This document shows positions 4,331 to 54,962 of a stretch of DNA of 64,000 nucleotides, piece by piece. Position 1 is the stretch's first letter. Each line of letters begins with the position of its first letter. The stretch comes from Boletus sp. NGJ (lineage: Eukaryota > Basidiomycota > Agaricomycetes > Boletales > Boletaceae): assembly GCA_019096195.1 (NCBI GenBank), contig JAGTXK010000024.1:1-64000 (forward strand). Reading direction: 5' to 3'. The notes beneath the pieces are model-generated. The model searched no databases. It was not told where the DNA came from and worked only from the letters and a program-made list of their open reading frames with translations. Position numbers and translations under genes: made by a program.

Positions 4331-5026
4331 ACAGCCATGCAGATCCTAATTCATCTGTTGGCGATCAGCATGATTATGGTAATCACATTTAAAAAAATCG
4401 TACATTGCCTACTTCTGCACAGGCCAAAGCATCTTACAAAGGTCCAGTAGTGGTGCACCCCGCAAATTGCACGTATGAACAGCAGCTTCTGGAAAGCTTA
4501 TCAAGTGGAAGTTGATTTTCACGCAGCACAGCTGACAAGTTGAAAGACACCATCGGATGGGGAAGATACACAGAAGGTGCCAATTCCTGAGGAATGGAAG
4601 AATGAAAACATAAATGGGGCCAGTGAGGGCAAAGTGGACTGGGCTAAGGGCTGAGAAAGAGAAACAGCATTACTACTCATTTGAATGAATCAATAGAATA
4701 AACCCATCTGTAGGACTTCATTGAACATTGACAACCAGTGCACTTAGAAGGATTGTGTTTTATTCATTCTAAATGCGTAAAGGGTAGAAAGAATGAAGCT
4801 GTTGCTATAAATGACAGGCTGAGTGTACCAACATGGACTTGTGGCAAATTCACACACTGACCAAGGGTTCATCACTGCATGACCTCCCTGCATGACCTCA
4901 CATCACCCTACTGGGGCTTTGATAACTAATCATAAATACATGCCGCCACACCCTCCCAATGGCGATGGCAGGTGTCAGGCATCACATGGATGGTGTCCAC
5001 CACCTTACTGAGTTTTTACTGAGCTT
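4331..5026. other. No gene seen; flank of foldback repeat
   Basis: There is no supported reading frame. The last 45 bases before 5027 match, in inverted orientation, the bases just after the second foldback repeat at 10265. The repeated unit therefore extends a little outside the hairpin itself. Confidence 0.5.
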
Positions 5027-5259
5027 CTACTACTACATGGTTGTGGTTGCAGGTAAAGAAGGGAAAGCTTACCCAATTTGGAAAGCAGGTTGATATTGTG
5101 AATCAAACTTAGTCCGGGCAATGCTGCTCAGGTGTGGGATGCATGTGATGAGCAGCGTCACCCAGACTGAGTTTGATTCACAATACCAACCTGCTCTCCA
5201 AATCAGGTAAGCTTTTCCTTCTTTACCTGCAACCACAACCATCCATGTAGTAGTAGTAG
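5027..5259. repeat. Foldback (hairpin) repeat, copy A
   Basis: About 233 bp whose two halves are near reverse complements. It starts CTACTACTACATGG and ends CCATGTAGTAGTAGTAG, with internal arms containing GGTTGTGGTTGCAGGTAAAG and its complement, and a short loop around GGGATGCATGTGATG. The form is that of a MITE or foldback element. A second copy lies at 10056-10265 in opposite orientation, and matching flanks on both the inner and outer sides show that the repeated unit is longer than the hairpin. Confidence 0.85.
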
Positions 5260-5564
5260 ACTCTGTAGAAAGTAAATTCAATGTAATTAAAGGTGGCAAC
5301 CGTCTAAATGCTGAACATCCCAGCGCAACGCATCATCCATTGTTGTCATAGTGATGTGCCAATGTGCTGTACAATTGTGAGCCATTGCTATTTATTGTCA
5401 CTACTTGATGTTTGGGTTAACATTGCTCAGCAGTCTTGTTGTCTATCGTCATCCCATCCTGGCACAGCATGTCGTCCATCGCTGTAGTGATCAGTCTTGT
5501 TGTCTATTGTTGCACTCTGTCCTCTATTATATTAGGGCAATAATGTTAGTTATCATTGTAAGCA

Positions 5565-9330: not shown

Positions 9331-10055
9331 GTATCAATCAATGTATTATATGGATATGGACCTAGCTATGATGATACCATGAATGTAATATAAGGTAATA
9401 TACAGGTAGTATGGACCAGGACCAACCAAAGTCTTTCCAACATATAGCATGCCCTGTGTGATGGTTGAACTGCAGGATTTGTTGGAGTGAGTGTCATCAC
9501 AGATGACCTTCAAGGCAATCTCCAAGCAATCAGAAATCAAGCCTTCAGATGCTGCAAGAGGCAAAGTCGAGGACAGGAGAGATACTGCAAACAGGCAAGT
9601 GATGGAATGGGTGCATAGCTTTGATGTGAGGTTAGGGGAATGGGTCGACCTGCCAAAGCATCGGACAACTGGCAGTGAAGGATTTGAAGGGGGAAATACT
9701 GGCTCCAGTAAGTGACCTGGGACAATAGTGAGGGTGGTCAGTATATGATAGGTATCTTCAAGTCGATGGTGCTAGATGAATTACCATGATGGTGAAGGCA
9801 TATTAGGGGTGGTGGGAGTGGTGGGAGTCATGTACACTGCCAAAGAATTTTGGGAGGGGGAAATACTGACTTTGGAATACCTCTGCCCATACAACAGTGA
9901 AGGACTTGTGGTGACAGTGTAGATTTCTTTGTCAACAGCAAGATGACAGTCGGTGGGCAATGACAACAGAACATTGCCAATCACTGTGACGACGGGCAAT
10001 GTGCTGCACCAGGATGTTCAGCTTTTGATTACATTGAATTTACTCTCTGCAGAGT
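9331..10055. other. No gene seen; imperfect G-rich duplications
   Basis: There is no supported gene. Two similar stretches around 9672-9710 and 9838-9880 share GGGGGAAATACTG with TGCC-AAAG or AGTGAAGG flanks and look like an old local duplication. The final 30 bases are the inner flank of foldback copy B. Confidence 0.4.
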
Positions 10056-10265
10056 CTACTACTACTACATGGATGGTTGTGGTTGCAGATAAAGAAGGGA
10101 AAGCTTACCCAATATGGAGAGCAGGTTGATATTGTGAATCGAACTCAGTCTGTGCACGTGATGAGTGGCATTGCCCAGACTGAGTTCAATTCACAATATC
10201 AACCTGCTCTCCAAATCAGATAAGCTTTCCCTTCTTTACCCGCAACCACAATCATGTAGTAGTAG
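10056..10265. repeat. Foldback (hairpin) repeat, copy B (inverted relative to copy A)
   Basis: About 210 bp, again self-complementary, from CTACTACTACTACATGG to CATGTAGTAGTAG. The inner flank (ACATTGAATTTACTCTCTGC, ending 10050) is the reverse complement of the bases just after copy A (5260-5291). The outer flank AAGCTCAGTAGGGCAGTGG matches the complement of the bases just before copy A. The pair is therefore arranged as inverted termini around 5260-10055. Confidence 0.85.
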
Positions 10266-10529
10266 AAGCTCAGTAGGGCAGTGGATGCCACAATCATCTA
10301 CATCAACAATGTAATGTATCATGTAGTACTAGCATAGTCAAGGCCGGCTGTAATCAAGCTGCTTGTATACATGTGAGGAACAAAGTCATCAATGTTGTGA
10401 GGCTTGTTATTCGAGCCTTGTCCAACTTTAATTCATAGGCCTTGTCTCTTCTGGGTGAGTTGTTTGACCTGGTTCTATCCCATAAAAACAGTGATCATTT
10501 AATTTCCTTGCCTGGTTACCCTATGGATC

Positions 10530-13500
10530 ATGCCTGCCCGTGATCAGCATTACCACTGTTTCTGTTCAGCTTGTTGTGATCTTGACAAGAATAGAGTTGC
10601 CAGGAACTCCGCAGGTAGGAGCCAGCTGGAACAATATAGGAGTGTCCATCTTCGCAAATCGGTAACTCCTGAGCGTCAGCCTTCCAAGAATGTGTGTAGT
10701 GTGGCCATGGCAGACCCCGCTGAGTGTGGTAGCTTGTCAATACCTGCATCTCGCCTGCTAATCCCCCAGCTGGAAGTAAAATAATCCCACTCTGTTTGCT
10801 GTTCCCATCTAATAGCCACCCTCTAGCCTGATCTGGACTCCCTCGCTGCATCTCTTTTTTCCACAACATTGCATGACAATGGCCCTGATCTAGACTTGCA
10901 GCCTAGCAAATTATGGGCTTCTCACAAGGAATACCAAGCCTCCCATAATCCCAGGGATTTTCCACTACCAAATCTGGCTGACCTTGCCAGTGCTGTCAGT
11001 TGGATGACCCTGTCAAACAAGTACTAATCCATGCTGCCTGCAATCCCCAACAGTACTGATATTCGTCCCATAATAGTGCACGCAATCTAGACCATTTCTC
11101 TACAGCATCAGAAATCCAAGCCCCTTCTCAATGCAGCTCCCTCCCTGCAAATACTAACATATCTGTGGAATGGTGATGAGTGTTTGTTCCTGAAGGCTGG
11201 GTAGTTACTGAGGTAATTGCAGTGTCAGCGGAAAATTGGACAAGTGGAAAAAAAATCATCGTACAGTGATTGCCCACAGGTGCTTGGATCAAATCGAACT
11301 CCGGATACAGCATCTTGGTCAACAACTGGTCACCTCTGCCCCAAACAACTTGCACTCAGAGTTGGTGGCCATTCAGAATGCCTTAGCCAATGTCAAGCGG
11401 CAAGCTCCCTCAGTTAAGATGCAAAAGGAAGAGCTATGCACGGTGTGTTTTTCGCTAGAGAGTCGCATTGACGAAGTGGACCAATCAAGAACTGACGGTC
11501 CAGTTGAGTATGACTCTGGTAAGTGTCTTTGAAACAACAGACAGTTCGAATTTGTACTCAATGCCATTTTGTTAACCCATCATTTTGACCACCCTGTTGA
11601 TCGCTGTGACAAAATTGCACAGGTTTCACTTTTCCTTGCTGTTGTGAGTGTGACTGTCATATCCCATGTAATTCGACAAGTCCAACTCTGGCACTCTGTC
11701 CATAACTCTGGCACGTTCTCCCTCAGAGTACGTCCTCATACCCTCGGACTTGTAACACCCTCACTATAGTATTTATACTTCTCCTTTCGTACATAACCTA
11801 TGCTTCTTCATCTGTCCTAGTCCTGCCTTATAGTTGTCTCCGACCCAGTGTCTGTCTCGCTTAGGAGCACTGCTCCGGCGAGGTCCCATCTCTGTCCTGT
11901 TACTCATTATGCCTTATGAACTCTGTTACTAATACCTTCATTCCGATCATATATAGACCCTTTGTACTACTCCTGTAAAGTCAGTTGGAATATCAACTCT
12001 GAACACTCCTCCTATCTCCTGTCCAAGTCTCGATGACTCACTCCGACCCTCTGCTCGACTTGATATTTGACTACGTTGAGTCCAAATCTCTGATCCTCCT
12101 ATGTCTTCAAAATCCGGGACATCAGACTTGAGCAAGGGCGCACCACATAAGGTGAAGCCAAGTCCCGACACCCTCAAGTAACTCCGGTCCTTCAGAGTTT
12201 CATCAGAGTTGTCTGTTCTTAACAGTGACCCTGTTTGGCATCAGTCGTGCATGTGGAGACTTTTTCCTCAGGATTATATCACTCATCCTCAGCTTGGCAT
12301 TCAAACTAGTCAGCTCACAAGCCAAAACCATTTGCGATTGCACCCTCATACAAATTCCTAAGATCGTGAAGACAGCATTGTCCCGATTCAACCTTGAAGG
12401 TCACACCACCACATATGTGGTTTGTCCACACTATAACTACACTCACAAGCCCTCCTGCAATGGGGGCTCCAATCCCACCTATCCCCTCTGTTGCACCAAT
12501 AAACTCTGACTAGAGGGTAAAGCCTATGACACTATTCTTGTGTGCAATCCAAATGACAGTTGTAAAATTCCCATTAGATCTTTCATCTATCACCATTTTC
12601 ACGACTACTTGGCTGGGTTGTTGGCGAAAAAACCAGGACTAGAAATTCTGATGGATAATCATTGCGATGAACTTGCAAAAGTTGCCAAGAAACCAGTGCC
12701 TGCTGCTGTGAAAGATGTGTGGGATGCTGAGTTTTTACACACCTTCACTGGACTGTGTGGTGGTCAGTTGTTCATTGATCGTGGCGATGAAGGCCATTTT
12801 TTGTTCTTCTTGAATGTAGATTTTTTCAACATGGAGGGAAACCTCCAATGCAATGCAACAACCTCCTGTGGCATCATACTGTATCATGTGCCTGTTTAAA
12901 CCTACCCATGGATATTCACTACAAACCAGAGAATATATACATTGCTGGCATCATTCTAGGCCAGCATGAACCCTCAGGAGACGAACTCAATTTCTTTCAG
13001 GACCCTTTAATTGGTGATATGGTAGAAAGTTGGGACAGGGGCGTGTGTTTTTCTCACACTGCCTCAGGAGGTCAGTCTCGTATCACACATTCTGCTATTG
13101 CTTGTGTCATCTGTGATCTTTCAGTGGTGAGGAAAACTGCTCAATTGAGTGCTGCCACTAGCCATTTCTATTGTAGTGCTTGTCACTGTTTTCACTTGTC
13201 GACTCTCGGCAGGACGGACACAGGCTCTTCCCAATGGACATTTCGTGACAAGGACACCTTGTGCTGTCATGCAGAGGTTTACAGGGCCGCTTCCTCTGCT
13301 GAGTGCCGCAAATTGTTCGTTCAATATGGTGTTCAGTGGGCATCACTTTGGCGTCTTCCATACTAGGACCCAGCCAAACAATTGGTTATTGACTTTATGC
13401 ACTGTTTGCTCGAGGGACTAGCCCAAGGTCACTTTCGTGAATTTCTAGGGCTTACCACCACTATCACAGCCAAAGCGCAGGCTGATTCAGACTTGTATCC

Positions 13501-15000
13501 AGTGTTCACTGATGATTTCCACTGCTCTGCATTGGCTGAGACAGAACTCAGTATGAGCAACCAAAAACACATCAAGAGCATTTATTTGTTACTTCTCAGT
13601 GCCATGGATAATCCTAGAGATGGCGAGGAGGATCTGTGCATCAAGCAACATTTTGCTGCCTTAGAACGAAAGCTGGCTATGAAGAATGTAACCTCTCTAA
13701 AATTTGTGGCCAAGGGGCTTAAGTTGTCACTGTCACACAGACAGGGAAGAGTGTATAAAGGCCATTGGATTAAGACGCTCGTTGAATGGGTGGGTACACT
13801 ACTACTGTTACTTCTGATGTACATTTAACATTTATTCAGCAAAACACGAAGCCCATGAATGCCCCCCTGAAGATCCAGATATCCACTCCATCTATAATGC
13901 AGCATATCCAACAAGTTATCACCGAAACAGATATACCCTCTTGGCTGAGGTTGGTTCCTCGTAACTTTGGTGAGACACGAGCAGAAACTCTGAAGGCTGA
14001 TGAATGGCAAACTATGACAACAGTCTTTCTGCCGCTGGCACTCATCAGCCTGTGGGGTGAAGGGTCGGCACATCCATCAAAGGAGGTGGCAGATCACCTG
14101 CAACGTGTTCTCGACCACACTATGCTTCTTGTCTCAGCAGTTCAAATTGCTTGCTATCAGGTCATGACAGCATCTCGGATGACAGCATATCAAACCTGTA
14201 TCACATCATGGTTAGCTAATTTAAAACAGGTTTTGCCAGATGCTCCCTTCTGCCTAAACGGGCATATGGTGTGCCATATTTATGACTACCTCAAGCTTTT
14301 CGGACCTGTTCGCTCTTGGTGGTGTTTCCTATTTGAGCGCCTCATTGGTCAGCTGCAATGCTTCCCGACCAACCATAAATTTGGTTTGTTGAAAAAGTAA
14401 CTTTGACTCTCATGTACTGACAATCTACAGGCAAACTTGAAGAGATGATCTTACAGTCCTTCATTCAAGGAGCTAGGCTTCGTGGCTGGCTTTCCCGATC
14501 TGATTGCCTGCCTGCTATCAGGGAATGCCTAGCGCTGTTCAATAAGCATGTAAACAGTGATACCCATGAGCTCACAAGCACATTTGCCATACCAAATGCT
14601 GTTGGTGATAAGCAGCAGCAGTCTATCCCCTGTGACCTTGTCCCTCACACTTCCCACAGTTGTGTCAAGTTCTATGCCCGTTATCAGTTCGGTGGGATGC
14701 TCTTCAGTTGCCATTCCACTCATACTGGCAATAGTCTGGTAATGTTCTACCCATCAGGCAGCAGTACTTTGATTCCTGGCTGTATCAAATATATCTTTCA
14801 AGACAACTGTCAAATCCGATTTACTATTTAGTGTCAGTTCCCTGCTGATCTGGACACTGTTGATCCTTTCCAACACTTTTCTTACTTCCCAGCGCATTTG
14901 TACTCTAAAGATCTGGACTCTAATCTCGAGATAATTCATCCAGCAGCAGTGGTATCACACTTTGCTTAATGGTGCTTTTCTGCTGACCATGTAGTTGTTT
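10530..15000 (+). mobile_element. CACTA-type DNA transposon, Tnp2-like transposase, decayed
   Basis: A Cys-rich start (HYHCFCSACCDLDKN at 10540) is followed by a coiled-coil block at 11276-11500 with Leu and Ile heptads. Next come LILSLAFKLVSSQ near 12275 and SRFNLEGHTTTYVVCPHYN near 12385. The Tnp2 core follows: DRGDEGHFLFFLNVDFFNMEG at 12778-12840, LNLPMDIHYKPENIYIAGI at 12898-12950, SHFYCSACHCFH near 13165, VIDFMHCLLEGLAQGHFREF near 13388, then the C-terminal region LRGWLSRSDCLPAIREC near 14478 and KFYARYQFGGMLFSCHSTHTGNS-type sequence near 14670. The order matches Tnp2/CACTA (CMC superfamily) transposases of mushrooms. At least one stop replaces an expected Trp just after 13360 and a one-base slip occurs near 12880, so it is inactive. 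Terminal CACTA repeats were not identified. Confidence 0.8.
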
Positions 15001-16307
15001 TGACATTGACAAAGGTATGTTGTCCATCACACTCATATCAATCTACTAATTCCTGCTAACTCAGGACTAATCATGAAACTAGCTACCGAGTTGTATCCAA
15101 GTACTACAATTACAATAAATTTGCCTCCTTTGCTGAGAGAAATGTAGTGACTTTTGCTGCTCCCGCGTCTGAAGGGATTGTTGGGCCATCCGATATTGCA
15201 CCTTTGGTGGCATACATGACTCCCCTATATGACTCCCCCACCCCTGATATGCCTTCACCATTATACTCAACATTTAGGAACCATCGAAGGGCTATCAACC
15301 CCATTTGACATTGCTCATTGCTCTGGGGGATGATGGCACTCTGGGCACTCCACTGCCTGCTTAGTGGACAGCCAGTGCCTGTTATCTGCCCATATGGTGC
15401 CCACCATGTTGCCCGATAACTTTTTGACCTTTTAAAATATAAAGTTTCATAAATTACTTATAAGCTGACCAAAATTATATATTCTATAGTTCGTGAACCT
15501 CTTCTATCTTAGATAATGTTAAGTGAATCTCAAAATATAACATTTTGTGGCACAGGACATGCTTTCGGATAAGATAAGCTTGTCATGAAAATTATGGCAT
15601 CCATAGATGTTATTATTTTCTATTTCCTTATGTGATACTGAGAAGTTTCATAATAACTTGCAGTATTATGTGATCCCTCAGAATATAAGATTACCTACTC
15701 CTCCAAAATAGTTACCCAAAATATTTAATAATCTAATTACATTTTGCAATGTATTCTCAGGCACCTTTAATGTTGAAAGTCCCAGTGTGTAATGATAATG
15801 CTGCATACATCAGTAAAATTACAGCCTGCTTTATTTGGCTTAATTGACTTAAAATATGCTTAAAGTGCACTAAGCACTGAAAGCCAGCCAATTTCATAAG
15901 ACGCTCAACTCAGTTTCTACTAATTGTCTTAGTGATCTCGCACAACTAATAATCAAATGAAAAGATGGCATTAGTAGTATAGGCCAGTTAGATACAAAAT
16001 GTGATTACTTAATGGTATGAGCGGTCATAAAACAAGAGGGGGAAAATGACCAACCAAGAAGAAAAGAAGGAAAGGAAAAGGGTAAGGAAACATGGCTTAA
16101 ACAAGAAAAAAAGGATGCATGCAAGGATTTGCTGACATGGTAATAAAAAAAGGCCAAAGGGGAGGAGAGTGATGCCTAGGGAAACAGTCATTATTGCACA
16201 TACTAGATCTGCCATTAAGCTACTTACTGTGTCAATGAAATGCAAAGAGATCTTCAAACTTATCATTGCTGGATGAGTCAAATGAACCTGAGGGAACCCT
16301 GACAACA
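15001..16307. other. AT-rich intergenic DNA, no supported gene
   Basis: The first 300 bases may be the 3' tail of the CACTA unit. From about 15415 to 16250 the sequence is AT-rich with repeated AAAATATAA and TTTCATAA words, and no coding pattern is recognised. A minus-strand frame near 16009-16305 is poly-lysine complement and unconvincing. Confidence 0.5.
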
Positions 16308-16519
16308 GTTAGTCTTTGAATTGGTGTAAGGTAGCACTGGGTGGTTGCACCCCAGATTCTGTTGTTGAACTCATACTGGGTTCCTTTAGGGATGTATGGC
16401 GACCATGCATCCACTGACTCTGCTGGTTGGAACTTAACAGTGTTGTTTGCAACTAATGTAAGAACTCGGGCAAGCTATTACATTAGTAAAAACAGGACTA
16501 ACTGTTCAGTGCTGGACAG

Positions 16520-16710
16520 TACTGGACAGTAACATAGTGCTCATAGTGAGGGTCCAACTGGATAGTGGTTTGATAGTACTATGACAGTGTCTCATAGTCT
16601 GTTCATAGTGTGGCCATAGTCTGTCATAGTATTCTAATAGTACTTTCATAGTGTCTCATAGTATGGTCATAGTGATGCCATAGTATATATAGTGCTTCCA
16701 TAGTGGCTTA
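16520..16710. repeat. Degenerate CATAGT-rich tract (left arm)
   Basis: CATAGT and TCATAGTGTC-like words recur roughly every 10-20 bases from about 16535 to 16705. The mirror tract is at about 23690-23870, and a diverged relative lies at 63737-63862. The tract is noncoding and may be a subterminal region of a transposon. Confidence 0.7.
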
Positions 16711-16818
16711 GCAATTCTAATTCTCAATCTAATTCTAATCCAATTTCAAGCCAATTCTAATTTCAAATCCAATCAAATATTAATTCTACTAGTTCTAATT
16801 CTAATTTTAATTCTAATT

Positions 16819-16853
16819 TTAATCCTAATCCTAATCCTAATCCTAATCCTAAT
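16819..16853. repeat. Short TCCTAA/TTAGGA array, five units (left arm)
   Basis: Five perfect TCCTAA hexamers at 16823-16852 are flanked by related TTCTAA and TTTTAA words. The right-arm counterpart at 23540-23575 has six. This difference accounts for the 6-bp offset between the arms. Confidence 0.9.
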
Positions 16854-17310
16854 TCTAATTCTAATCCCAGTTCCAATCCCAATCCTAATGATTTACAAGG
16901 TAAAGTATTGACTTCATGTAATGAGTAGAGAAGGATAAAATTAAGAAACAAGAGAGTGTGGGAAAGTTTTTGAAGTCTGGCTTGTTTATATAAGAATGGT
17001 GGCACAAACATTGGCAAACAATGTCCGCTTTTTTAACACTAAGTGTGGGAAAATGGACTTGGATATTTTTTGAATGTAGGTCTACACTTTTACTACACTT
17101 TTACTACACTTTGGTGTGTACTTTTGATACACTTTTGATACACTTTGTTTGCTACACTAAGGAGAGACATTTTATTATTATGTGAAAGAGATGAACACTT
17201 ATGGGTCAAGGATGGCTGGCTGCTTCCATTTCTGGCCAGCAGTACTCCCAGGCTTGACAGCCTCCTCTTGATTGCCAGCATGATTATCTACAAACCCAGC
17301 ACATATCATG

Positions 17311-17790
17311 TCAGCTCGTATGATTTAAACCAGGATGAGTAATAGGCTTATCTAGCCAGTCATTGAGGAGCTGGCTGCCAATAAGAGTTGGATTGTCCTC
17401 AAAAGTAATGGCCACTTCGTCCACATTTCCACCATCTTCTAACTGTCCCATTTCTAGGCCAGATGGAAAGCCCCCTGTCTGGCTGCCCTCAATTTCCTGT
17501 GAGGCTCCTTCAACTTGTGATGAGGCCTTGTGGACAATGCATAGCCATGGCCTGGCCTGCAGAGGGTGAGTATGAACATGTTCTTCATGTTGCACTGACT
17601 GATTGACTATATCAGTGAGGTGGTTGATGCCCCATTCCAATGCAGCCTGCTGTGCCAACTGCTCTTGCTCAGCTCGCTTGTTGTTTGCTTGTTTTTGCTC
17701 TGAGGTGCATTGCTTTTGAATACTTTCTAGCACAACATGACCAGAATGCTGGTTAGCATTTTTAGCACGAGTAACAGGGCAGGACAACAT
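17311..17790 (-). CDS. Transposon-associated hypothetical protein (left-arm copy)
   Basis: This is a 159-residue frame on the minus strand, duplicated identically in the right arm (22602-23081, plus strand). It begins MLSCPVTRAKNANQHSGHVV, continues with a charged segment rich in Gln, Lys, Glu and Ala (EQKQANNKRAEQEQLAQQAA, likely coiled coil), then an acidic C-terminal half containing EGGNVDEVAITFEDNP-like sequence. Proteins with an ANQHSG start followed by a coiled coil occur beside transposons in agaricomycetes, and I do not know their function. It lies divergently upstream of the Plavaka C-terminal fragment. It may be the first exon of a longer protein, because the frame stops shortly after LNHTS. 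Confidence 0.45.
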   Translation of the reverse strand: MLSCPVTRAKNANQHSGHVVLESIQKQCTSEQKQANNKRAEQEQLAQQAALEWGINHLTDIVNQSVQHEEHVHTHPLQARPWLCIVHKASSQVEGASQEIEGSQTGGFPSGLEMGQLEDGGNVDEVAITFEDNPTLIGSQLLNDWLDKPITHPGLNHTS

Positions 17791-17929
17791 TTCAACAGCA
17801 ACAAGTGAGGATGTTGGTTGTGCGAGTGAAGAGAGAGTTGAAAAATTGTGTATGTAAACTTAACGGTTGCATGTGTCATACAGTCTAGAACAACTCTAAC
17901 TACTGTGATATAGAAGGACTGGGGCGTCA

Positions 17930-19800
17930 ATGTCAACATTTTGGTTGTTCTGCTCATCTTTTGTTTTTACCAAGTCAACTCAGATCATATTTCAGCTATT
18001 CACTCATCACTTTCCTCGTGCCAATATTTGCCAATTCATTGCACCAGACATCTTTCATCAGCTGGTGAAGGGAACATTCAAGGATCACCTCATTGAATGG
18101 GTTGAGAAATTTCTTGAGCACAGGTATGAAAATCTGGCGCAAAGAATTGGTTGGCTGATATTGACTGCCAGTGAGTCTTTTTGACATAACTTGCATTTGA
18201 TCATTAAATCATTGAGTCGTGGCATTCTATTTCAGTATCTCTGTTGTTCCTCCCTTTCTGGGACTGAGGTAATTCCCAGATGGTTGGAGCTTCAGCCAAT
18301 GGACCGGAAACGATTCCAAAGCATTAATGAAGATCAGTAGTGTATTTGATTTCTTTCCTTTCCCCCACTTGTTAATGCTCAAAGTAATAGGTCTATCTAC
18401 CTGTCCTTGAGGGTCATGTATTAAGCAATATCGTGCGGACAATTCACGCACTCCTTGAATTCTGTTACATTGTCCAGCATAATTTTATTCATGAGAAGTC
18501 CTTTTATAAGTTAAGGGATGCACTTACATGTTTCCATTGATATTGTGAAGTTTTCTGGGATACTGGAGTTCGCACTGGTTTCTCTCTTCTCCATCAGCAC
18601 TCTCTTACCCATTACGAGTTGCTGATTCATCTCTTTGGTGCTCCAAACAGTGTATCCACATCCATAATGGAATCAAAGCATATTACCACTGTCAAAAAGC
18701 CTTGGTGCTGTTCAAGCAAGAACAATGCCCTTGGACAGATGTTACAGATAAATCAGCATTTGTCACAGCTAGCTGCTGCTCATGCCGACTTTGAGGCACA
18801 CAGTATATTGATGCCATCAACACAATATGGTATATATCAATGACACCTCTATACTGTCAACTTGCTAACTGAGAACTTCTATAGCTGTTACTGATATCCT
18901 ATTGACAGCTGGCATGACCTCGCTCACACAGAACTCAGTGTGGGAGGAGGACACTGAATCTGATGAAGATGAGGTCCCTATTCCAGCACACAAATCCCTC
19001 AGACTAGCTCATTCAGACATTAAGCTTGCTCAAGTACCAGGTAAGCCTGCTGGCAACATTTATCTATTTATACATGATGATTTGTTACTTATCTCGATTG
19101 CAAGCTCATGGCCATGCAAAGACCATGGTGGCTCTCTCCATTGAGCTTGGCATACCACATCTCTCAGTCCTCATCAGACAGTTTCTATCACAGCAGCTTG
19201 AGTCCGACTTGCTCTTTGCCTCCACCCTTCATTGCACTTAACTCCTAGATTCCATCAGAATCAAAATTTTCCATTCCACCACCATTATTTTTGTGGCCCT
19301 CAGTGATGCAAGCAGAGTCAATGGCCTCCACCAAGAGTAGATCCATGCCAACCCATTTTGGCAGGGTGGTGCATCACGATATAACTGCATGCTTGTCAGC
19401 ACAGATGCTTCCTTTGATGGCATGTTGAGCATGGAAGTTGCACGTGTTTTTTTTTTTTTTTTTTTTCATTTGTGTATACTAATGGTAAAGTGTACTCTTG
19501 CACACTCATCCACTGGTTTGACCAGCTTGCAGATGAGCCAGATGAGCTTACAGGGATGTGGATGGTCACACCATCCTTCCTCAACAGCCATGCAAAACAC
19601 CTCATTGTCATTTCTGTTGAAAGCATCGTCCATAATACCCATCTCATTCCTATTTTCAGTACTGAGTATGTCCCTGAGCATGTAACCTGTGAGAATTCTT
19701 TAGATTTATATGCAGTTTTTATGTTAATTGCTTCTCAGACCACCACATGTTTGAACTGGTTTCTTAGCATACCTAGCAGCTATACATGTCTAATTGACTA
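17930..19800 (+). pseudogene. Plavaka transposase, C-terminal half (left-arm copy)
   Basis: Fragments follow the order of Plavaka DNA transposases of mushrooms: FPRANICQFIAPDIFHQLVK and GTFKDHLIEWVEKFLEH at 18010-18122, then HYELLIHLFGAPNSVSTSIM near 18610, ESKHITTVKKPW at 18672, and NALGQMLQINQHLSQLAAAH near 18724. GHAKTMVALSIELGIPHLSV follows near 19110, then STDASFDGMLSMEVARV at 19395-19446, and finally LIHWFDQLADEPDELTGMW (19507-19563) and VHNTHLIPIFSTEYVPEHV (19628-19684). Introns and several stops split it, for example in the block near 19338. The N-terminal zinc finger and central domains are missing from this arm. An identical copy lies at 20600-22462 on the opposite strand. Confidence 0.8.
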
Positions 19801-19910
19801 AATGTACTAACTTGCATGTTCATGAATTTGTAAAAGTCCAATAAGAAGCTAAAGACTAACAGGACCTCAGCTATTGGACTTGATTGACTTGCAGTACTAA
19901 CATTATGGCA

Positions 19911-20481
19911 AATCATATTAAACATGGCAAGTATAATACAAGCCAAATAAAGCACGCTGTAATTTTACTGATGCAAGCAGAGAATGGTCGGTTACACAGC
20001 TCAGTGGAAATCCCCCTTCTGAATGAGAAGGTCAAATACACATCTGAGACTGACCCGAGTATACCTACAATCACTGTCAACAATGTCATCCACCGCTCTC
20101 TCATTGACATCATCAAGTCTGTTTTCAAAGACAGCATCTCTTTGACTTTTCACATGACTCCGTTTGAACAATTCTGGAAAACCACAGACAAATGTATACT
20201 CAAGATATACTCTGAAGCTTGCTCAGCTCCAGCCATGCTTGACTTCTATAAGGAGATCAATGTCCTTCCAAGGGCACCAGGGGATGACTATGAATGAGTG
20301 GTGGTGTCACTAATTCTCTGGTCTGATGCAATGCAACTTGCCAACTTCAGTGATGCTTCCCTCTGGCCCATCTATCTATTTTTCAGAAACCAGTCAAAAT
20401 ACACATGCAGCAAGCCAACAGCAGCCGCATGTCATCATGTTGCCTATATTCCAACAGTGTGTATTTTCATGCTTATGATTA
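19911..20481 (+). pseudogene. Plavaka transposase mid fragment in the spacer of the inverted duplication
   Basis: This is the 571-bp unique centre between the arms. From about 19972 it encodes AENGRLHSSVEIPLLNEKV and then PSIPTITVNNVIHRSLIDII, APAMLDFYKEINVLPRAPGD, and, after a stop at about 20295, WPIYLFFRNQSKYTCSKPTA. The same order is seen in the copy at 38550-39005, so this is the middle of a Plavaka transposase. Its normal continuation is absent: the homology stops at the right-arm junction, in what should be the intron after HHVAYIPT. Confidence 0.75.
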
Positions 20482-20599
20482 TGCCATAATGTTAGTACTG
20501 CAAGTCAATCAAGTCCAATAGCTGAGGTCCTGTTAGTCTTTAGCTTCTTATTGGACTTTTACAAATTCATGAACATGCAAGTTAGTACATTTAGTCAAT

Positions 20600-22462
20600 T
20601 AGACATGTATAGCTGCTAGGTATGCTAAGAAACCAGTTCAAACATGTGGTGGTCTGAGAAGCAATTAACATAAAAACTGCATATAAATCTAAAGAATTCT
20701 CACAGGTTACATGCTCAGGGACATACTCAGTACTGAAAATAGGAATGAGATGGGTATTATGGACGATGCTTTCAACAGAAATGACAATGAGGTGTTTTGC
20801 ATGGCTGTTGAGGAAGGATGGTGTGACCATCCACATCCCTGTAAGCTCATCTGGCTCATCTGCAAGCTGGTCAAACCAGTGGATGAGTGTGCAAGAGTAC
20901 ACTTTACCATTAGTATACACAAATGAAAAAAAAAAAAAAAAAAAACACGTGCAACTTCCATGCTCAACATGCCATCAAAGGAAGCATCTGTGCTGACAAG
21001 CATGCAGTTATATCGTGATGCACCACCCTGCCAAAATGGGTTGGCATGGATCTACTCTTGGTGGAGGCCATTGACTCTGCTTGCATCACTGAGGGCCACA
21101 AAAATAATGGTGGTGGAATGGAAAATTTTGATTCTGATGGAATCTAGGAGTTAAGTGCAATGAAGGGTGGAGGCAAAGAGCAAGTCGGACTCAAGCTGCT
21201 GTGATAGAAACTGTCCGATGAGGACTGAGAGATGTGGTATGCCAAGCTCAATGGAGAGAGCCACCATGGTCTTTGCATGGCCATGAGCTTGCAATCGAGA
21301 TAAGTAACAAATCATCATGTATAAATAGATAAATGTTGCCAGCAGGCTTACCTGGTACTTGAGCAAGCTTAATGTCTGAATGAGCTAGTCTGAGGGATTT
21401 GTGTGCTGGAATAGGGACCTCATCTTCATCAGATTCAGTGTCCTCCTCCCACACTGAGTTCTGTGTGAGCGAGGTCATGCCAGCTGTCAATAGGATATCA
21501 GTAACAGCTATAGAAGTTCTCAGTTAGCAAGTTGACAGTATAGAGGTGTCATTGATATATACCATATTGTGTTGATGGCATCAATATACTGTGTGCCTCA
21601 AAGTCGGCATGAGCAGCAGCTAGCTGTGACAAATGCTGATTTATCTGTAACATCTGTCCAAGGGCATTGTTCTTGCTTGAACAGCACCAAGGCTTTTTGA
21701 CAGTGGTAATATGCTTTGATTCCATTATGGATGTGGATACACTGTTTGGAGCACCAAAGAGATGAATCAGCAACTCGTAATGGGTAAGAGAGTGCTGATG
21801 GAGAAGAGAGAAACCAGTGCGAACTCCAGTATCCCAGAAAACTTCACAATATCAATGGAAACATGTAAGTGCATCCCTTAACTTATAAAAGGACTTCTCA
21901 TGAATAAAATTATGCTGGACAATGTAACAGAATTCAAGGAGTGCGTGAATTGTCCGCACGATATTGCTTAATACATGACCCTCAAGGACAGGTAGATAGA
22001 CCTATTACTTTGAGCATTAACAAGTGGGGGAAAGGAAAGAAATCAAATACACTACTGATCTTCATTAATGCTTTGGAATCGTTTCCGGTCCATTGGCTGA
22101 AGCTCCAACCATCTGGGAATTACCTCAGTCCCAGAAAGGGAGGAACAACAGAGATACTGAAATAGAATGCCACGACTCAATGATTTAATGATCAAATGCA
22201 AGTTATGTCAAAAAGACTCACTGGCAGTCAATATCAGCCAACCAATTCTTTGCGCCAGATTTTCATACCTGTGCTCAAGAAATTTCTCAACCCATTCAAT
22301 GAGGTGATCCTTGAATGTTCCCTTCACCAGCTGATGAAAGATGTCTGGTGCAATGAATTGGCAAATATTGGCACGAGGAAAGTGATGAGTGAATAGCTGA
22401 AATATGATCTGAGTTGACTTGGTAAAAACAAAAGATGAGCAGAACAACCAAAATGTTGACAT
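20600..22462 (-). pseudogene. Plavaka transposase, C-terminal half (right-arm copy)
   Basis: Mirror of the fragment at 17930-19800. One coding change was seen: the codon in SVLI(R/G)QFLSQ differs between arms (position 21216). With the N-terminal zinc-finger fragment at 24100-24840 also on the minus strand, this copy could be the 3' part of a single minus-strand Plavaka element whose middle was lost or displaced. Confidence 0.8.
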
Positions 22463-22601
22463 TGACGCCCCAGTCCTTCTATATCACAGTAGTTAGAGTT
22501 GTTCTAGACTGTATGACACATGCAACCGTTAAGTTTACATACACAATTTTTCAACTCTCTCTTCACTCGCACAACCAACATCCTCACTTGTTGCTGTTGA
22601 A

Positions 22602-23081
22602 ATGTTGTCCTGCCCTGTTACTCGTGCTAAAAATGCTAACCAGCATTCTGGTCATGTTGTGCTAGAAAGTATTCAAAAGCAATGCACCTCAGAGCAAAAA
22701 CAAGCAAACAACAAGCGAGCTGAGCAAGAGCAGTTGGCACAGCAGGCTGCATTGGAATGGGGCATCAACCACCTCACTGATATAGTCAATCAGTCAGTGC
22801 AACATGAAGAACATGTTCATACTCACCCTCTGCAGGCCAGGCCATGGCTATGCATTGTCCACAAGGCCTCATCACAAGTTGAAGGAGCCTCACAGGAAAT
22901 TGAGGGCAGCCAGACAGGGGGCTTTCCATCTGGCCTAGAAATGGGACAGTTAGAAGATGGTGGAAATGTGGACGAAGTGGCCATTACTTTTGAGGACAAT
23001 CCAACTCTTATTGGCAGCCAGCTCCTCAATGACTGGCTAGATAAGCCTATTACTCATCCTGGTTTAAATCATACGAGCTGA
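22602..23081 (+). CDS. Transposon-associated hypothetical protein (right-arm copy)
   Basis: Identical in sequence to the protein encoded at 17311-17790 on the other strand. It has a charged, probably coiled-coil segment followed by an acidic half. Duplication with full preservation of the frame reflects the recency of the inverted duplication, not proven function. Confidence 0.45.
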   Translation: MLSCPVTRAKNANQHSGHVVLESIQKQCTSEQKQANNKRAEQEQLAQQAALEWGINHLTDIVNQSVQHEEHVHTHPLQARPWLCIVHKASSQVEGASQEIEGSQTGGFPSGLEMGQLEDGGNVDEVAITFEDNPTLIGSQLLNDWLDKPITHPGLNHTS

Positions 23082-23539
23082 CATGATATGTGCTGGGTTT
23101 GTAGATAATCATGCTGGCAATCAAGAGGAGGCTGTCAAGCCTGGGAGTACTGCTGGCCAGAAATGGAAGCAGCCAGCCATCCTTGACCCATAAGTGTTCA
23201 TCTCTTTCACATAATAATAAAATGTCTCTCCTTAGTGTAGCAAACAAAGTGTATCAAAAGTGTATCAAAAGTACACACCAAAGTGTAGTAAAAGTGTAGT
23301 AAAAGTGTAGACCTACATTCAAAAAATATCCAAGTCCATTTTCCCACACTTAGTGTTAAAAAAGCGGACATTGTTTGCCAATGTTTGTGCCACCATTCTT
23401 ATATAAACAAGCCAGACTTCAAAAACTTTCCCATACTCTCTTGTTTCTTAATTTTATCCTTCTCTACTCATTACATGAAGTCAATACTTTACCTTGTAAA
23501 TCATTAGGATTGGGATTGGAACTGGGATTAGAATTAGAA

Positions 23540-23578
23540 TTAGGATTAGGATTAGGATTAGGATTAGGATTAGGATTA
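23540..23578. repeat. TTAGGA array, six units (right arm)
   Basis: Six perfect TTAGGA hexamers at 23540-23575 followed by TTAAAA. The left arm has five. The unit resembles but is not the common fungal telomere repeat TTAGGG. Confidence 0.9.
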
Positions 23579-24099
23579 AAATTAGAATTAAAATTAGAAT
23601 TAGAACTAGTAGAATTAATATTTGATTGGATTTGAAATTAGAATTGGCTTGAAATTGGATTAGAATTAGATTGAGAATTAGAATTGCTAAGCCACTATGG
23701 AAGCACTATATATACTATGGCATCACTATGACCATACTATGAGACACTATGAAAGTACTATTAGAATACTATGACAGACTATGGCCACACTATGAACAGA
23801 CTATGAGACACTGTCATAGTACTATCAAACCACTATCCAGTTGGACCCTCACTATGAGCACTATGTTACTGTCCAGTACTGTCCAGCACTGAACAGTTAG
23901 TCCTGTTTTTACTAATGTAATAGCTTGCCCGAGTTCTTACATTAGTTGCAAACAACACTGTTAAGTTCCAACCAGCAGAGTCAGTGGATGCATGGTCGCC
24001 ATACATCCCTAAAGGAACCCAGTATGAGTTCAACAACAGAATCTGGGGTGCAACCACCCAGTGCTACCTTACACCAATTCAAAGACTAACCAACAAGCA

Positions 24100-24840
24100 A
24101 TTTGATTTAATCATGGCATTAGTACAGTATTAGCCAAAGGAAGAATATTTCTAACTTGAGCTGATGGCACTGGCAGCCGAGAGCATTGATCAAGAGTCAG
24201 AGCATCCACAGCAATGCTAAGACTATTTTCTGCATCAGGGATGATGGTGGGCTGTGTTGGATAAACTTGGAACAGGCCCAAGCTATCAGGTTCTGTGGAA
24301 TACTGAGCAGGGGGAAGTGGACTATGTCATGAATGGGATGGACTGGCAGGCAAGGATGGGGGTGGCACTTGACAAAGACCAACCAATTTGCCAAGTAGAA
24401 AATCAGTGTAACATGCAGATAAGTGGATCTGACTTCCTGAGTGAACAGAGACAACAACAGGTGTATCTTGTGTGTTGGATGGGTCTGCAACATTCTAACT
24501 GGGCTAACAAAATTGTGTTAGTCTCTATTCATTTGAAGAATTGTCGAGATTGTACTTCAACAATGTGTCCATTGTTGTTGAAGTCATTGATATCCATTAT
24601 AATCACTGGTGAAGTCCCTTGGACATCTTGTAGACCAGCTGGCCCAGAACTTGGAGATGAGAAATGTCTATGTGAGCGCTTTCGCTTCTTATTCTTCCAA
24701 TGCTTTTGCTCCAGATGATGATGCTTGGAAAAAAGATCAGACATGAATTCTTTACTTGCTGTACACTGAGACTCATGAGAGCTCAGTGACCATTCACTTT
24801 GGAATGTTCTGCTGCATTCAAGGCATGATAGGTCATCCAT
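24100..24840 (-). pseudogene. Plavaka transposase N-terminal fragment with C2H2 zinc finger
   Basis: On the minus strand from 24840: MDDLSCLECSRTFQSEWSLS gives a C2H2 finger (C-x2-C at residues 6 and 9, then His and Cys), followed by LFSKHHHLEQKHW and a basic stretch KNKKRKRS. Further down the minus strand, at about 24300-24190, TEPDSLGLFQVYPTQPTIIP and DAENSLSIAVDALTLDQC match the equivalent segment of the larger Plavaka copy near 38140-38250. The fragment is cut at 24090, where the inverted-repeat arm begins. Confidence 0.75.
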
Positions 24841-25672
24841 TATTGCAGTAAGGAGGGTGAGGGAGCTTCAGGAAATGACTCAAACTTGGTAACTTCAAAA
24901 TACGAGGCTTTTTTATATTCCGACAATGGCAGCATACACAAAATAGTAAAGATCTAGCCTAGAAAACACAGGTTAGTTATTTGAAGATGCATCTGGGCTT
25001 CTGCAACTTACTAAAATGTCCAGCAGTGTCTAGTGTGTAACAACACACAGTGACTGAATTTGACAGAGAGGGATTGCACATGCTGGGGTGATTGTAGAAT
25101 TTTCCCACAACTCATAAGGCCACATATGAGGCTGATCACATCTTGATCTTGAACCCTATTCATCCACCCATGGCCATGCCCTCCAACAGCTGAAAATATG
25201 CATGTTCCCTGGATTCTGATTCTGATTTAATAGATAAACATGCCAAGAGACAGACTCCAGAAACTGAAGACCAAGTTCAGTCTACAAAACAGAAGGAATA
25301 TCTTGAGAACATGTAAGTATCCAGATTTATTGACATGATCCTGATACCAAAAATGCAATACATCCAGCCCACAGAAAGTGCTTGAATAAAGTAAATGAGC
25401 CTATCAAATGCTCATTCACCTTGCATCTGGCCTCAAAACACTTATACTGTAAATAACCCTTCAAAATTGAAGGAATGCAGGAATGTCATCAGCAAGGTGA
25501 GTATATGTGCATACACTCACTTGCTTGACTACTGATCATTGCTACAGATGAATAAGGCCATTAAATCAATGTGTGCTAATGACTCTGCCCATCTCAGATG
25601 ACAACCAGAATAATCACCCCAAAACCAACCAATCAACATCAATGACATGTTACGACCCACCCTGCAGCGATA
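24841..25672. other. No gene seen
   Basis: CpG-poor sequence with no coding pattern that I recognise. It contains a few words similar to Plavaka 5' regions and the left flank of a Tc1 element whose TA target site is at 25671-25672. Confidence 0.4.
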
Positions 25673-26990
25673 CAGTAACCTCCAAAACTGTTACAATGTC
25701 TAACCCTGAGATGGTGTGTGCAGCACACCACAAACACCCATGGACATTACACTTCACTTTGGTGGGAACAAACAAAGTACACACTCTTGGCTACAATCCA
25801 GCCTCTGGATCATGGAGTTATGTTCTTTTCAAAACAGCAATACAATTGCAATAGTTTTGCATCTTTTAGTAGAGAATGTACAATCTTGTTGAAATATCAT
25901 CATAAGTGGCAATGTTTGGTTATACAAACAAGGATACACATATAAATATTATGTCTGAGTTTGAAATAGTTCACACACTTCTTTATTTCCAACCACATCA
26001 TCATGAGATCCATCTCTTCTACTTAGAAAAACACCATTCTATTGCTGCCACCACTGGTCTCTATGCTTCTACCATATCCAGGCTCCACTCCAAAGAGCAT
26101 TCTGAGCTTCAGAAATCTGTTGGAGGTTGCCCATCCAAGCTTTCTCCTACCAATCTTTATTATGCCATCTGTCTCATTTCATCTAGAAAGGCAGAAAATG
26201 CTGTCCAGGTGACCAAGGCTCTCACCAATGTGGCAATGTGGTTAACCAACCCCTCTCTACCACCACAGTACACTGGCACTTGAGAAAAACTGGTATGAAG
26301 GCTGTGGTGAAGTCTAAATGCCCCCTTCTATCAGCTAGGCATCACAAGGCTTGCTTGTACTTTGCCTATGCTTATAAGAATTGGATTATAGAGGAATGGA
26401 AGAAGGTAGTATGGTCTGATAAGACTAAAATCAATCACCTAGGGTCAGATGGGTGAAAATGGGTCTGGAAAAAAGCAGATGAAGGGCTTAATGATAGATT
26501 GGTTGAAGGGACCTTGAAGTTTGGAGGAGGTTCTCTCATGATGTGGGGGTGTATGACTTGGTAGAGAGTTGGCTATGCTGTCAAGATTTGATGATAGGAT
26601 GGATGGAGACCTTTATCTTCAGATTTTAAAGGATGAGCTGCTAAATACTCTGTAGTATTATGGTCTAGATTCTTCTAACATGATCTTTCAGCAAGATAAT
26701 GACTCCAAGCATACTTGCAAAAAGGTGAAAGAGTGGCTTGGAAAGTAGGATTTTGGGACTATGATATGGCCAGCACACTCTCCTGACCTCAACCCCATTG
26801 AACACCTCTGGGGTCACCTAAAAAGAAGACTAGTAGATCAAAAACATCCTCCTAGTGGAATTCATAAGTTATGAGAGAGTGTGTATGTGGAATGGGAGGG
26901 GATACTACTTGAGGAGTGTCAGACATTAATTGAAAGCATGCTTAAGAGGGTTGAGGCAGTGCTCAAGACAAAAGGAGGCTATACCAAATG
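25673..26990 (+). mobile_element. Tc1/mariner transposon copy 1, right end missing
   Basis: The left terminus CAGTAACCTCCAAAACTG follows a TA dinucleotide and matches the terminus of the copy at 61456. A transposase reads left to right: helix-turn-helix region near 26045-26160 (GLYASTISRLHSKEHSELQK), then KTGMKAVVKSKCPLLSARHH, VVWSDKTKINHLGSDG with the first catalytic Asp, FQQDNDSKHTCKKVKEWL with the second, and [18 protein letters not shown] with the Glu (DDE of the Tc1 DD34E type). Stops interrupt it, one of them just after GSDG near 26455. The 3' terminal inverted repeat is absent: similarity ends at GGYTK and stop near 26990, where a different transposon begins on the other strand. Confidence 0.85.
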
Positions 26991-37270: not shown

Positions 37271-37596
37271 TGTGGTGGTCTGATCAAAATGAGCACAGGC
37301 CCATGAGCATAATAGTGCATGCTTACCACATGACTAGATTATCCCAATTTGAAAACAGTCTCAGCATGGTAGCGTGTCAGTTCTCTACCCTTTACCACCA
37401 AGTATGCTGCACCACAAAATTGCCATTGGACTGAGGTGAGTCCATTGAGACCTCATGGCATCCATAAGAGGCTTATCCATGTTGGTTTTTGTAGATTATA
37501 TGAATTAAAATATACATTTTGAGTATGATATAACCCCACTGACATTGCTCTCAAATGAAAATTGTTTTCACAACCTCTTACTTCGTTCTCAGTCAG

Positions 37597-40500
37597 ATAT
37601 GGACAATATGGTTTGCATCAGATGCAACAAGAGGTTTAAAACTGAATGCTCATTGAGTGCTCATGAAGTTCGGTGTGAGGCAAGTAAGGTGCTAACATCT
37701 AATCTCCTTGCCAAGCATCACTGCCTGGAGAAGGCTCATAGTAAGAAGAAATGCAAGTGATTATCCTCACCATCAGGGTCTGGGTCCTCCAGCTCTAAGG
37801 ATGAGACTGAGTCAGAGCATGCTGAAATTCCAGTGGATATGGTAGATGGCTTTCTCACTGCACAAGATGAAGTATGTGTCATTCATAATATGAATCTTTT
37901 TTTTTTTCAACATGTCTTAGATGGAGGAAATTCCTCAGGCCAGTCCATCTGTCATTTCTTCACCACCAGTTCTGTTGGCACATTCTAGATGATGCATTCA
38001 CTTGCCTGCACGCTACACAGATTTCCTACCTGGCAACTTTACTGGCCTTCGTCAAGCTATGCATCCACCTTCGGAGGCTCCATCCTCACCTGGACTTGCA
38101 CATCCGGGCCCTCCACCTCACCTAACTCTATACCAAACAGAACCTGATGCTATGAGTCTTTTTTGTGTCTATCCCACACTTCCGACACTGATTCCTAATG
38201 TCGATGCAGATCTTACAGCTGTTGTTGATGCCCCCACTCTTGAGCAGCACTGTCACATTCGATCATCCTTGCAGCATCTCGGTGGTCTGACTATGTCAGC
38301 TGGCATCACCTCAGAAAATCTATACTTTGTGTTTAGCAGTCCCACAGCTGGCCTCCTCATGTGCTGGCAATATTCAGGTTCAACATCAAAGTTGATCTCA
38401 GAGCTCAACTGGCTGTGGTCCTATATCAAGGACCCTCTCTTCAACCCTGCCAATAAAAGGATCTTCTTCCATGATAGGGAATGGAGACATCTTAACAAGT
38501 ATTTGATGACTGAGTCCAATCCATTCCGTGCAGAGCATGGTTGGCTATGGAGTTTGGTCAAGATACCACTCATCAAGGAGAAGGTCAAGTACAGCTCCAA
38601 AGATGATCCAGGAATACCAACTATCACCATCGAGGTTACCCATCGTTCCCTCACCAATATTATTAGATCCGTGTTCAAGAATGACCTCTCCCCCACATCT
38701 CATGTGACACCATTCAAACAGTGTTGGAGAGCTGCTGACAACCATGTTCTCAATGTATATTCAAAAGCCTACACATCCCCTACAATGCTCGATGTACACG
38801 AGGAAATTAATGCCCTTCCAAGAGAAGCCAGCAATGACTTCAAACGTGTCATTGCATTGCTAATGTTATGGTCTTGATGCAACACAGCTGTCCAACTTTG
38901 GTGATGTGTCCCTCTGGCTAGTCTATCTTTTCTTTGGGAACGAGTCAAAGTATACCCAAGGAAAGCCAAGTGCAGGAGTGTGTCATCATGTTGTGTATAT
39001 TCCAATGGTATGTACTAGCTCCTCGAGGAATGTTATAGCATGCCGCTTAACCATTCTATAGCTACCTGATGATTTTCAAGACACTTATATTGAGGTCTAT
39101 GGAGAGCCCTCAATGGACAATGTATATACCCATTGCAAGCAGGAACTAATGCAAGCCATCTGGAAGTTCTTCTTGGATGACGAATTTGTAAAGGCATACA
39201 AGTTTGGGGTCCTGATTACGTGCACTAATAGCATTGTCAGATGTGTCTTTCCATGGTTTTTTTCCTATTCCATAGATTATCCTGAAAAGTAATGTACTGG
39301 TTTTGTTTACATGGCAGGTCAGTTACTGATCTGAAGTTGTTCTTCAGGGTACCTTTATCATGTATTAAATTCTTGGGCAAGTGCCCTTGTCCTTGCTGTC
39401 TTGTGAAGAAAGCCAACACTCCAAACATGGGAAGAGACTCTAACATGGATATCCAGCTGATGAAGCTGCAATCCAATGACAAGGAGTATCAACAGAAAGT
39501 CAATAAAGTGCAGAAGCTTATTTTCAGGCAAGGTAAGGGGGTGAATAGTAACTATGTTGCCAAGTACACTCAAGCTGAATCCCTCACACCTACTTGAGTA
39601 CATCCTAATCTTCATGTCCAAAATTGTCCTAATGATATAATAGAATGCATTCACTGAGTGACTATCTGACACCAATGCAACATTCAATTTCTTCTTCTTA
39701 TTTATTGTTGATCTGCTCCATGAGTTTGAACTGGAGTATGGAAAGCAATATTTACGCATTTAATATGAATTCTGCATGCCGCTGCAGGCACAGCAGTTCA
39801 GGAACTGAACTGGCGGCATGTACACTGATAGATATATTGTTGTATATGGTATCTAACACATCATTATTGGAAAAGAGATATCGAAGAGTACCAACATTTG
39901 ATTATGGGACAATAAGAAGGTTTCATAAGAATCGTTAGCCATGAAGAGGCTTGCTGCATGTGACTTTGAAGACCTTCTACAGATATGTCTATCAACATAG
40001 TGGCATGATAAGCACAAATTGAAGCACTACATACAGTGCACTATTTCTGTATTTGAAGGCCTACTTCCTGCTCTACACAACACAATCATTCTAGACCTTC
40101 TATTAAATTTGGTGACACGGCATGCATTCACCAAGCTTCAAATGCATATTGACGACACACACTCTTTCTTTGACATAGCGACTACCTCTCTTAGCAGAGC
40201 GGTGCACAAATTTCAGAAAACCACATGCTTATTCTACCACACAACAGAGCTCCCCCAAGAATATGCAGCCCTGAGGTCACCACTAGGCCGCCCTGGCTGG
40301 AAAGCAGCCCCAATCATCAGGTGTGAGGCTTTCGACAGGTCCACGGGTCAAGGAACTCAACTTGTCAATGTATAAGTACCATGCACTTGATGACTATCCT
40401 AACACCATCCAGCAATTTGGTACTACTGATAGCTTCTCAACACAAATGGTCTGTCATCTATCACTGACATGAAAGTAGTACTAATCATTGTAGGGCCAGC

Positions 40501-41865: not shown

Positions 41866-42149
41866 TGTTCATTTTGTTCTTATCATTTACAGTAAGCTCG
41901 TGACTAATATTGAGTTTCTTGCATTCTCTGATCAGTATCTACATGACACGTACTTGCATTTTGTCGTCTGGACAGTGTCTGAATGGTAGCTGCCACGACA
42001 TGCATATTACCGGACGAGCTCAACCAGAAATAGCTCTGGCATATCAGCATGACGTCAAGATAGTGCATGACTCATTTTCATCACGTGCCCGCAAGCTCTC
42101 TCGTCCATTTCGGGCAATGTCAAAGTTTTGCAACTTTTGTGATGGCACG

Positions 42150-42352
42150 GCCACGGTATCCACATCGGCTCAACCCTGGAATACCTACTTCAAAACATTC
42201 CCTTCGACGTCGTCAAAGTCAAGGGTAGATGGGGAAGCGAAGCATTCCTAGTCTACCTCCGTCGTCACGCCCAAATCCTCGCCCCATATATACAAGCCCA
42301 ACCATCACTACACGAAGCCTTCCTCAGGCTAACCCTCCCACCCGTCCGCAAA
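42150..42352 (+). mobile_element. Tyrosine-recombinase C-terminal fragment (DIRS/Crypton-like fossil)
   Basis: A short segment encodes HGIHIGSTLEYLLQNIPFDV, VKVKGRWGSEAFLVYLRRHA and QILAPYIQAQPSLHEAF, the C-terminal end of a mushroom tyrosine recombinase of the DIRS/Crypton type. Only this end is present. Unlike the fossil at 30-34 kb it is CpG-rich, so it is younger or lies on the unmutated side of the border. Confidence 0.6.
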
Positions 42353-54947: not shown

Positions 54948-54962
54948 TAGTTTGTGTAGGAA

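Follow-up and report, generated by a model that had tools for sequence, protein, structure and literature searches.

An inverted duplication of 7.8 kb occupies positions 16308-24090 of the window, the 64,000-base stretch of Boletus sp. NGJ analysed here (positions 1-64000 of contig C43, which is 77,964 bases long). Two nearly identical arms of 3.6 kb enclose a centre of 0.57 kb, and both arms correspond to the inside of a decayed transposon, called E below, that appears to have inserted into an older gene of the Plavaka type, called G. The inverted duplication lies in a dead transposon and is not a mobile element. It was probably produced by foldback or template-switch synthesis primed by a short microhomology, a process that would leave an imperfect palindrome with a 0.57-kb loop, and what looked like a foldback transposon is thereby recast as an ordinary repair scar. 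Because the transposon had apparently split the gene beforehand, the sequence reveals the original order, which inner junction is new and the microhomology that would have primed synthesis; a transposon-split gene can act as a yardstick for inversions where repeats abound. Read in this manner, the locus would be a base-resolved natural foldback inversion in a filamentous fungus, a clear case of an already familiar type of chromosome scar and no new genetic element.

Arms and centre

Left arm (A), 16308-19910, plus strand: part of the inside of transposon E
Right arm (A'), 20482-24090, minus strand: inverted copy; the match carries on to 20474 with one extra base
Centre between the arms, 19911-20481, plus strand: right end of E (19911-19973) plus G2, a part of gene G
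New inner junction (J1), 20474-20482: TATGATT, the reverse complement of 19911-19917, then one extra A

Alignment of one arm to the other confirmed the coordinates at which a preliminary description of this DNA had placed a near-perfect inverted duplication, as well as the differences that it listed: two substitutions (G at 16958 against A at 23434, in the same reading; A at 19176 against G at 21216) and one TAATCC unit, the extra hexamer of the right arm at 23573-23578. The poly-T said to be kept in both arms is indeed 20 bases long in each (19447-19466 and its complement at 20926-20945). Self-BLAST joined the arms and seven more inner bases into one alignment of 3,617 columns at 99.75% identity. 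A 3.6-kb match at such identity is not a matter of chance. Among inverted pairs of at least 150 bases in the window plus 17 loci (165,202 bases), the runner-up measured 224 bases at 96.9%, and no other pair came near arm length.

I was unable to find a further copy of the whole 7.8-kb unit in the organism's own genome (141 contigs, 32.8 Mb; all 17 candidates scored). The centre likewise has no second full-length match there; its 12 other matches are partial and more distant. These 571 bp are nevertheless not unrelated unique DNA, since they hold an end of E and a piece of the gene whose preceding part flanks the right arm. DNA folding of the centre mostly recovered the pairing of the arms, whose ends had been included, and this result was not used.

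Inner junctions

The two inner junctions differ in age. Related loci, named here by their contigs and counted when an alignment reached at least 40 bases, cross 19910/19911 in all five cases with alignment at that point (C48, C62, C73, C114 and C133), and the centre was thus originally continuous with the left, non-inverted arm. At the right inner junction, alignments of the same five loci begin at 20479-20482, and none of the five enters the centre by more than three bases. Since every relative crosses the left inner junction and none crosses the right, 20480/20482 is the new join.

This new join carries a short inverted match just inside the arms: 19911-19917 matches 20474-20480 for seven further bases, with the single extra A at 20481 intervening. 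A flush match of 7 bp at J1 is expected at a frequency of 7e-5, as estimated from 200,000 random pairs, or 2.6e-4 if a slip of one base is allowed.

Gene G

G2, part of the older Plavaka gene, 19974-20480, plus strand: about amino acids 171-346 of the C133 open reading frame; ends in an intron
G1, N-terminal part of the same kind of gene, 24091-24867, minus strand: to about amino acid 110

A single open reading frame, C133:351002-352054, matches G1 (amino acids 48-94) on the minus strand of the window and G2 (amino acids 172-346) on the plus strand, and a copy within the window itself, at 37993-38874, likewise matches G1 on minus and G2 on plus. The surrounding stretch, 37593-41649, is another Plavaka copy, related to gene G and less broken. 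The second part of G2 gives a Pfam match to PF18759 within 20298-20486 (E-value 3.5e-8), and comparison with three relatives places the end of G2 a short way into an intron. Matches to G1 end toward the right arm at 24090 (C74, 36% identity), 24141 (C133) and 24186 (the window copy).

In eight of ten G1 relatives, a relative of G2 follows downstream on that strand at a distance of 0.9-1.0 kb (909-970 bp), two of the eight (C17 and C126) looking like copies of each other; for the remaining two, C104 and C42, no G2 relative was among the matches listed. G1 and G2 also have close relatives in common (C133, C43, C74 and C71), and I infer that they come from one gene copy. By the gene order of those eight relatives, the sequence beyond the right arm is an inverted G1 that would originally have stood before the left arm. 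The gene stretch missing between G1 and G2, called g, amounts to 132-193 bp if the join lies at 24091 and slightly more if it lies at 24141.

Transposon E and element M

Decayed transposon E, 15808-19973, plus strand: termini CATCAGTAAAATTACAGC..GCTGTAATTTTACTGATG, PlavakaB type; placed by its inverted ends and by where alignments of relatives stop
E_left, the left end of E, 15808-16307, plus strand: beside the left arm only; matches C11
Plavaka transposase fragment in the left arm, 17987-18103, plus strand: profile positions 287-325 of PF18759
Plavaka transposase fragment in the right arm, 22289-22405, minus strand: the same fragment, profile positions 287-325 of PF18759
Left part of element M inside E, 16480-17158, plus strand: copy in the right arm at 23234-23918, minus strand

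A genome search with 17160-19910 returned, besides both arms, matches of 69-90% identity, the longest in C48, C62, C133 and C11. The left arm is colinear with C62, C11 and C48, all three of which carry extra internal DNA. At the right end of E the alignments stop at 19973 (C48 and C62), 19975 (C114) and 19976 (C73). The ends of E, at 15808 and 19973, fit the CATCA..TGATG given for PlavakaB transposons (PMC12730594; this and the other papers cited here are drawn on in part), and neither terminus is contained in the arms.

E resembles PlavakaB (PMC12730594) in these termini and in its fragment of Plavaka transposase, which Pfam assigns to PF18759 with an E-value of 4.8e-14, one of at least 131 matches to that family in the genome. 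Unlike PlavakaB as described there, E is decayed, lacks the N-terminal transposase stretch of C48 and has no clear target duplication. The positions of C48 that correspond to 17899 and 17915 are about 1.8 kb apart; the DNA between them, which the arm does not have, contains Plavaka matches (profile positions 1-168). E is preceded by TA and followed by CA, where a target duplication of 2 or 3 bp is not clear; this may agree with an altered left flank, and proves nothing.

Within E lies the first 0.68 kb of another repeat, element M, whose full copies measure about 1.2 kb, so that M is truncated in the arms. It was listed at no fewer than 36 other places (40 of 240 candidates scored) and is a repeated, apparently non-autonomous, element. 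In the C5 copy its ends are CATTAGTAAAAACAGGA..TCCTGTATTTACTGATG, with inner CATAGT and TAATCC sub-repeats, and it is also seen in L004 at 1500-2690.

Proposed origin

A plausible course of events begins with the PlavakaB-type E interrupting the old Plavaka gene, which would have given the order G1-g-E-G2, as the gene order of the relatives suggests. Later, a DNA end or stalled fork would have terminated at 20480, in the G intron just past G2, and its 3' end, TATGATT, would have paired with AATCATA at 19911-19917, 556 bases back on the same or the sister strand, as the junction indicates. Synthesis from this primer would have copied E backwards, yielding the inverted arm, and continued toward G1, which would explain why G1 is now found past the right arm and on the other strand. 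At the join to G1 about 0.65 kb is absent, made up of g and some 500 bp from the left end of E; this stretch could have been skipped during synthesis or lost afterwards. The left side would have changed as well, for the left end of E now lies about 15 bases from another repeat, X, without g. A staggered-break inversion in its simple form was rejected, as it would place E_left beside G1, and E_left adjoins the other arm.

Of the origins offered in the preliminary description, foldback repair or template switching gains from the 7-bp inverted microhomology at J1, the ancestral left inner junction and the opposed strands of G1 and G2; rolling-type or other transposition finds no support, both arm boundaries falling inside E.

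The proposed origin has parallels elsewhere. Human foldback inverted duplications (PMC3907307) show the same succession of non-inverted copy, unduplicated spacer and inverted copy. They also have inverted microhomology at the join between spacer and inverted copy, of 2-8 bp in 13 of 21 junctions (three more lay in repeats and five had insertions), compared with 7 bp in Boletus. Insertions of 1-3 bp sometimes occur at the human junctions, and J1 has its one extra A. The human cases reported there are, however, large and mostly accompanied by a terminal deletion, whereas in Boletus only 3.6 kb is visibly duplicated, with a repeat as left outer flank. Foldback inversions of Saccharomyces cerevisiae (PMC7467729) are similar in their hairpin priming, in stems that go down to 4 bp and in the secondary rearrangements of the products, but those yeast events were selected in laboratory strains. 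Inverted copies likewise arise in origin-dependent inverted-repeat amplification in yeast (PMC4689423), and the inverted copy-number changes at long repeats in Candida albicans (PMC7371428) are likewise linked to repeats. Among the titles and abstract openings surveyed, no report of such a structure in a fungal transposon was found.

Outer boundaries

End of repeat X, 15200-15790, plus strand: about 15 bases from the left terminus of E; copies in C27, C81 and C130
Outer right junction (J2), 24090-24141: E_left and g absent; exact base uncertain

The right end of X is 89-93% like the copies in C27, C81 and C130, and the wider stretch 12848-15790 holds the remains of a tnp2-type transposon (X), with a tnp2 match just over the cut-off and a DUF4218 match just under it. 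On the left, C11 aligns with 15805-16077 in register with the left arm, scoring 89 where the best of 100 shuffles scored 39, and 16078-16307 taken as a block scores 37, a value reached in none of 300 shuffles (mean -0.4). The corresponding block on the right, 24091-24320, has a score against C11 that was reached in 12 of 300 shuffles and is not clearly above chance. A 24-base likeness of 24113-24137 to the left region of E was noted by eye, and the five bases CAACA stand directly outside both arms (16303-16307 and 24091-24095). The comparison of the outer flanks with relatives rests on one of them, C11.

Several observations weigh against foldback synthesis as the origin. The match to C11 overruns the right arm boundary at 24090 by 18 bases in DNA and 28 bases in the protein comparison, the protein match scores 82.8 bits with the right arm as against 75.1 with the left, and extension of the C11 alignment from an anchor scored 11 at the right boundary, 4 at the left and at most 8 in 60 random stretches. 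A few additional bases of E may thus be present in the right copy, and the left arm may have been altered just outside 16308. In a translated comparison (E-values up to 1e-4) I was unable to find g or a second G1 to the left of E, and the assembly contains no second G1, the G1 DNA being single copy, although a full palindrome predicts one on the left. The 571-bp centre is slightly shorter than the shortest spacer of the human series (766-70,466 bp; PMC3907307), and as a loop it exceeds most of those in yeast, where the large-loop median is 36 nt, although some run to many thousands (PMC7467729).

The overrun of C11 would suit the right arm as the original copy and continues to count against the simplest form of foldback synthesis. 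That arrangement was nevertheless rejected: the inner junction is unambiguous, and of the outer flanks 15805-16307 aligns with C11 in register, with no clear match of this kind for 24091-24320. Neither that junction nor the gene order depends on the C11 boundary result, which therefore leaves confidence in foldback synthesis unchanged. As for the missing G1, contig C43 starts within the repeat-rich stretch left of E, and a later loss of a left G1 is possible; either X and more DNA were inserted, with the other G1 further left than the contig reaches, or a rearrangement affected the left side. A translated search for g at relaxed settings gave background among the matches listed.

Alternative explanations

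The nearest competitor is a replicative template switch in which a single event comprised two jumps, J1 to the sister or parental strand and J2 over about 0.65 kb to G1. It is a variant of foldback synthesis, so the odds of the two overlap, and taken separately it is a possibility to be held tentatively. It would produce J1 and J2 together without a dicentric intermediate, and the one extra base at J1 is in its favour. Microhomology at J2 is not judgeable, g being lost and the exact join uncertain, and the junction sequence alone cannot separate two-jump switching from foldback followed by deletion.

An assembly or library artefact, whether a foldback or chimeric read or a mis-join of two nuclear haplotypes with different versions of the locus, is unlikely. 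In favour of an artefact, already considered in the preliminary description, the contig is short (77,964 bases), and foldback reads occur in long-read data, one example having about 2 kb between its segments (PMC12870357), even though the foldback-read tool of that paper counts second segments starting within 200 bp, near mid-read. Rows of equal score on different contigs (C17/C126, C112/C119 and C3/C131) hint at duplicated haplotypes, or else at segmental copies, within the assembly, and two haplotypes are perhaps both present. A simple foldback read, however, does not predict two different outer flanks; past the right arm it would continue with the left flank in reverse complement, and G1 stands there, with E_left missing. 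The arms moreover differ at three places and are separated by a 0.57-kb centre, and a mis-join of overlapping reads fails to account for the 7-base join.

Transposition fares worse. That the 7.8 kb is a foldback-type transposon with 3.6-kb inverted ends, the flanking CAACA being a 5-bp target duplication, is hardly credible. CAACA does stand immediately outside each arm, but the apparent foldback transposon is rejected because the left flank is E-like, in line with C11, and the right flank is gene G from 24141 at the latest; a search for further copies of the unit found none (17 of 17 candidates scored), and the arm ends fall within E instead of at termini. Alternative transposition, a transposase-driven rearrangement using one end of E, is very improbable. 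In its favour, the left end of E is intact as far as its CATCA terminus, and g cannot be clearly recognised next to it; against it, the junctions are away from the termini of E, J1 by 63 bases and J2 by about 500.

Age

The arms have diverged by 0.06% (two substitutions in 3,603 bases), compared with about 10-16% between E and its nearest relative, C48. At an assumed substitution rate of 1e-9 to 1e-8 per site and year, the duplication would be of the order of 30-300 thousand years old, with a wide error since only two events are counted, unless there is gene conversion between the arms. The G of the left arm at 16958 is shared by all six homologs, so it was the right arm that changed; at 19176 the one comparable homolog (of four asked) has the G of the right arm.

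Long inverted repeats are able to convert each other, and the structure might instead be an old inverted repeat homogenised by gene conversion from arm to arm. I regard this as quite unlikely: the 7-bp match at J1 is intact and lies outside the arms, which suggests little decay since the event. The very recent origin first proposed for the duplication is likely, although arm-to-arm conversion could also keep the arms alike.

Possible function and surroundings

If transcribed, the locus would be a candidate trigger of transposon RNA silencing. A read-through transcript could form 3.6 kb of double-stranded RNA including part of M, and RNA interference could then act on M-type and PlavakaB elements genome-wide, as has been proposed for Mu killer. 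The genome has 15 Piwi-domain matches, 14 of them over the cut-off, so a hairpin transcript could feed RNA silencing. That the structure is such a natural hairpin-RNA locus is nonetheless improbable, and so is a related reading in which the arms are the core of a larger chromosomal palindrome whose other outer arm was collapsed or cut at the contig start. Mu killer of maize (PMC3440606) is similarly an inverted duplication of part of a transposase gene, for which that paper proposes hairpin silencing while offering an antisense model too; the Boletus locus, unlike Mu killer, is known from DNA sequence alone.

Elsewhere in the window, the GC content at 42001-58000 is 0.49-0.61, compared with about 0.38-0.48 in the rest. 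This part, which includes an Svf1-like gene at 45828-47165 (minus strand), may be an island of genes flanked by transposon-rich DNA. A short imperfect palindrome (81-83% self-complementary) occurs twice, at 5013-5291 and 10024-10275, about 5 kb apart. An inverted pair of 0.7 kb and 77% identity occupies 26277-26987 and 61706-62414, and 61454-61674 and 62848-63068 (95%, inverted) may be the terminal repeats of the copy at 61706-62414.

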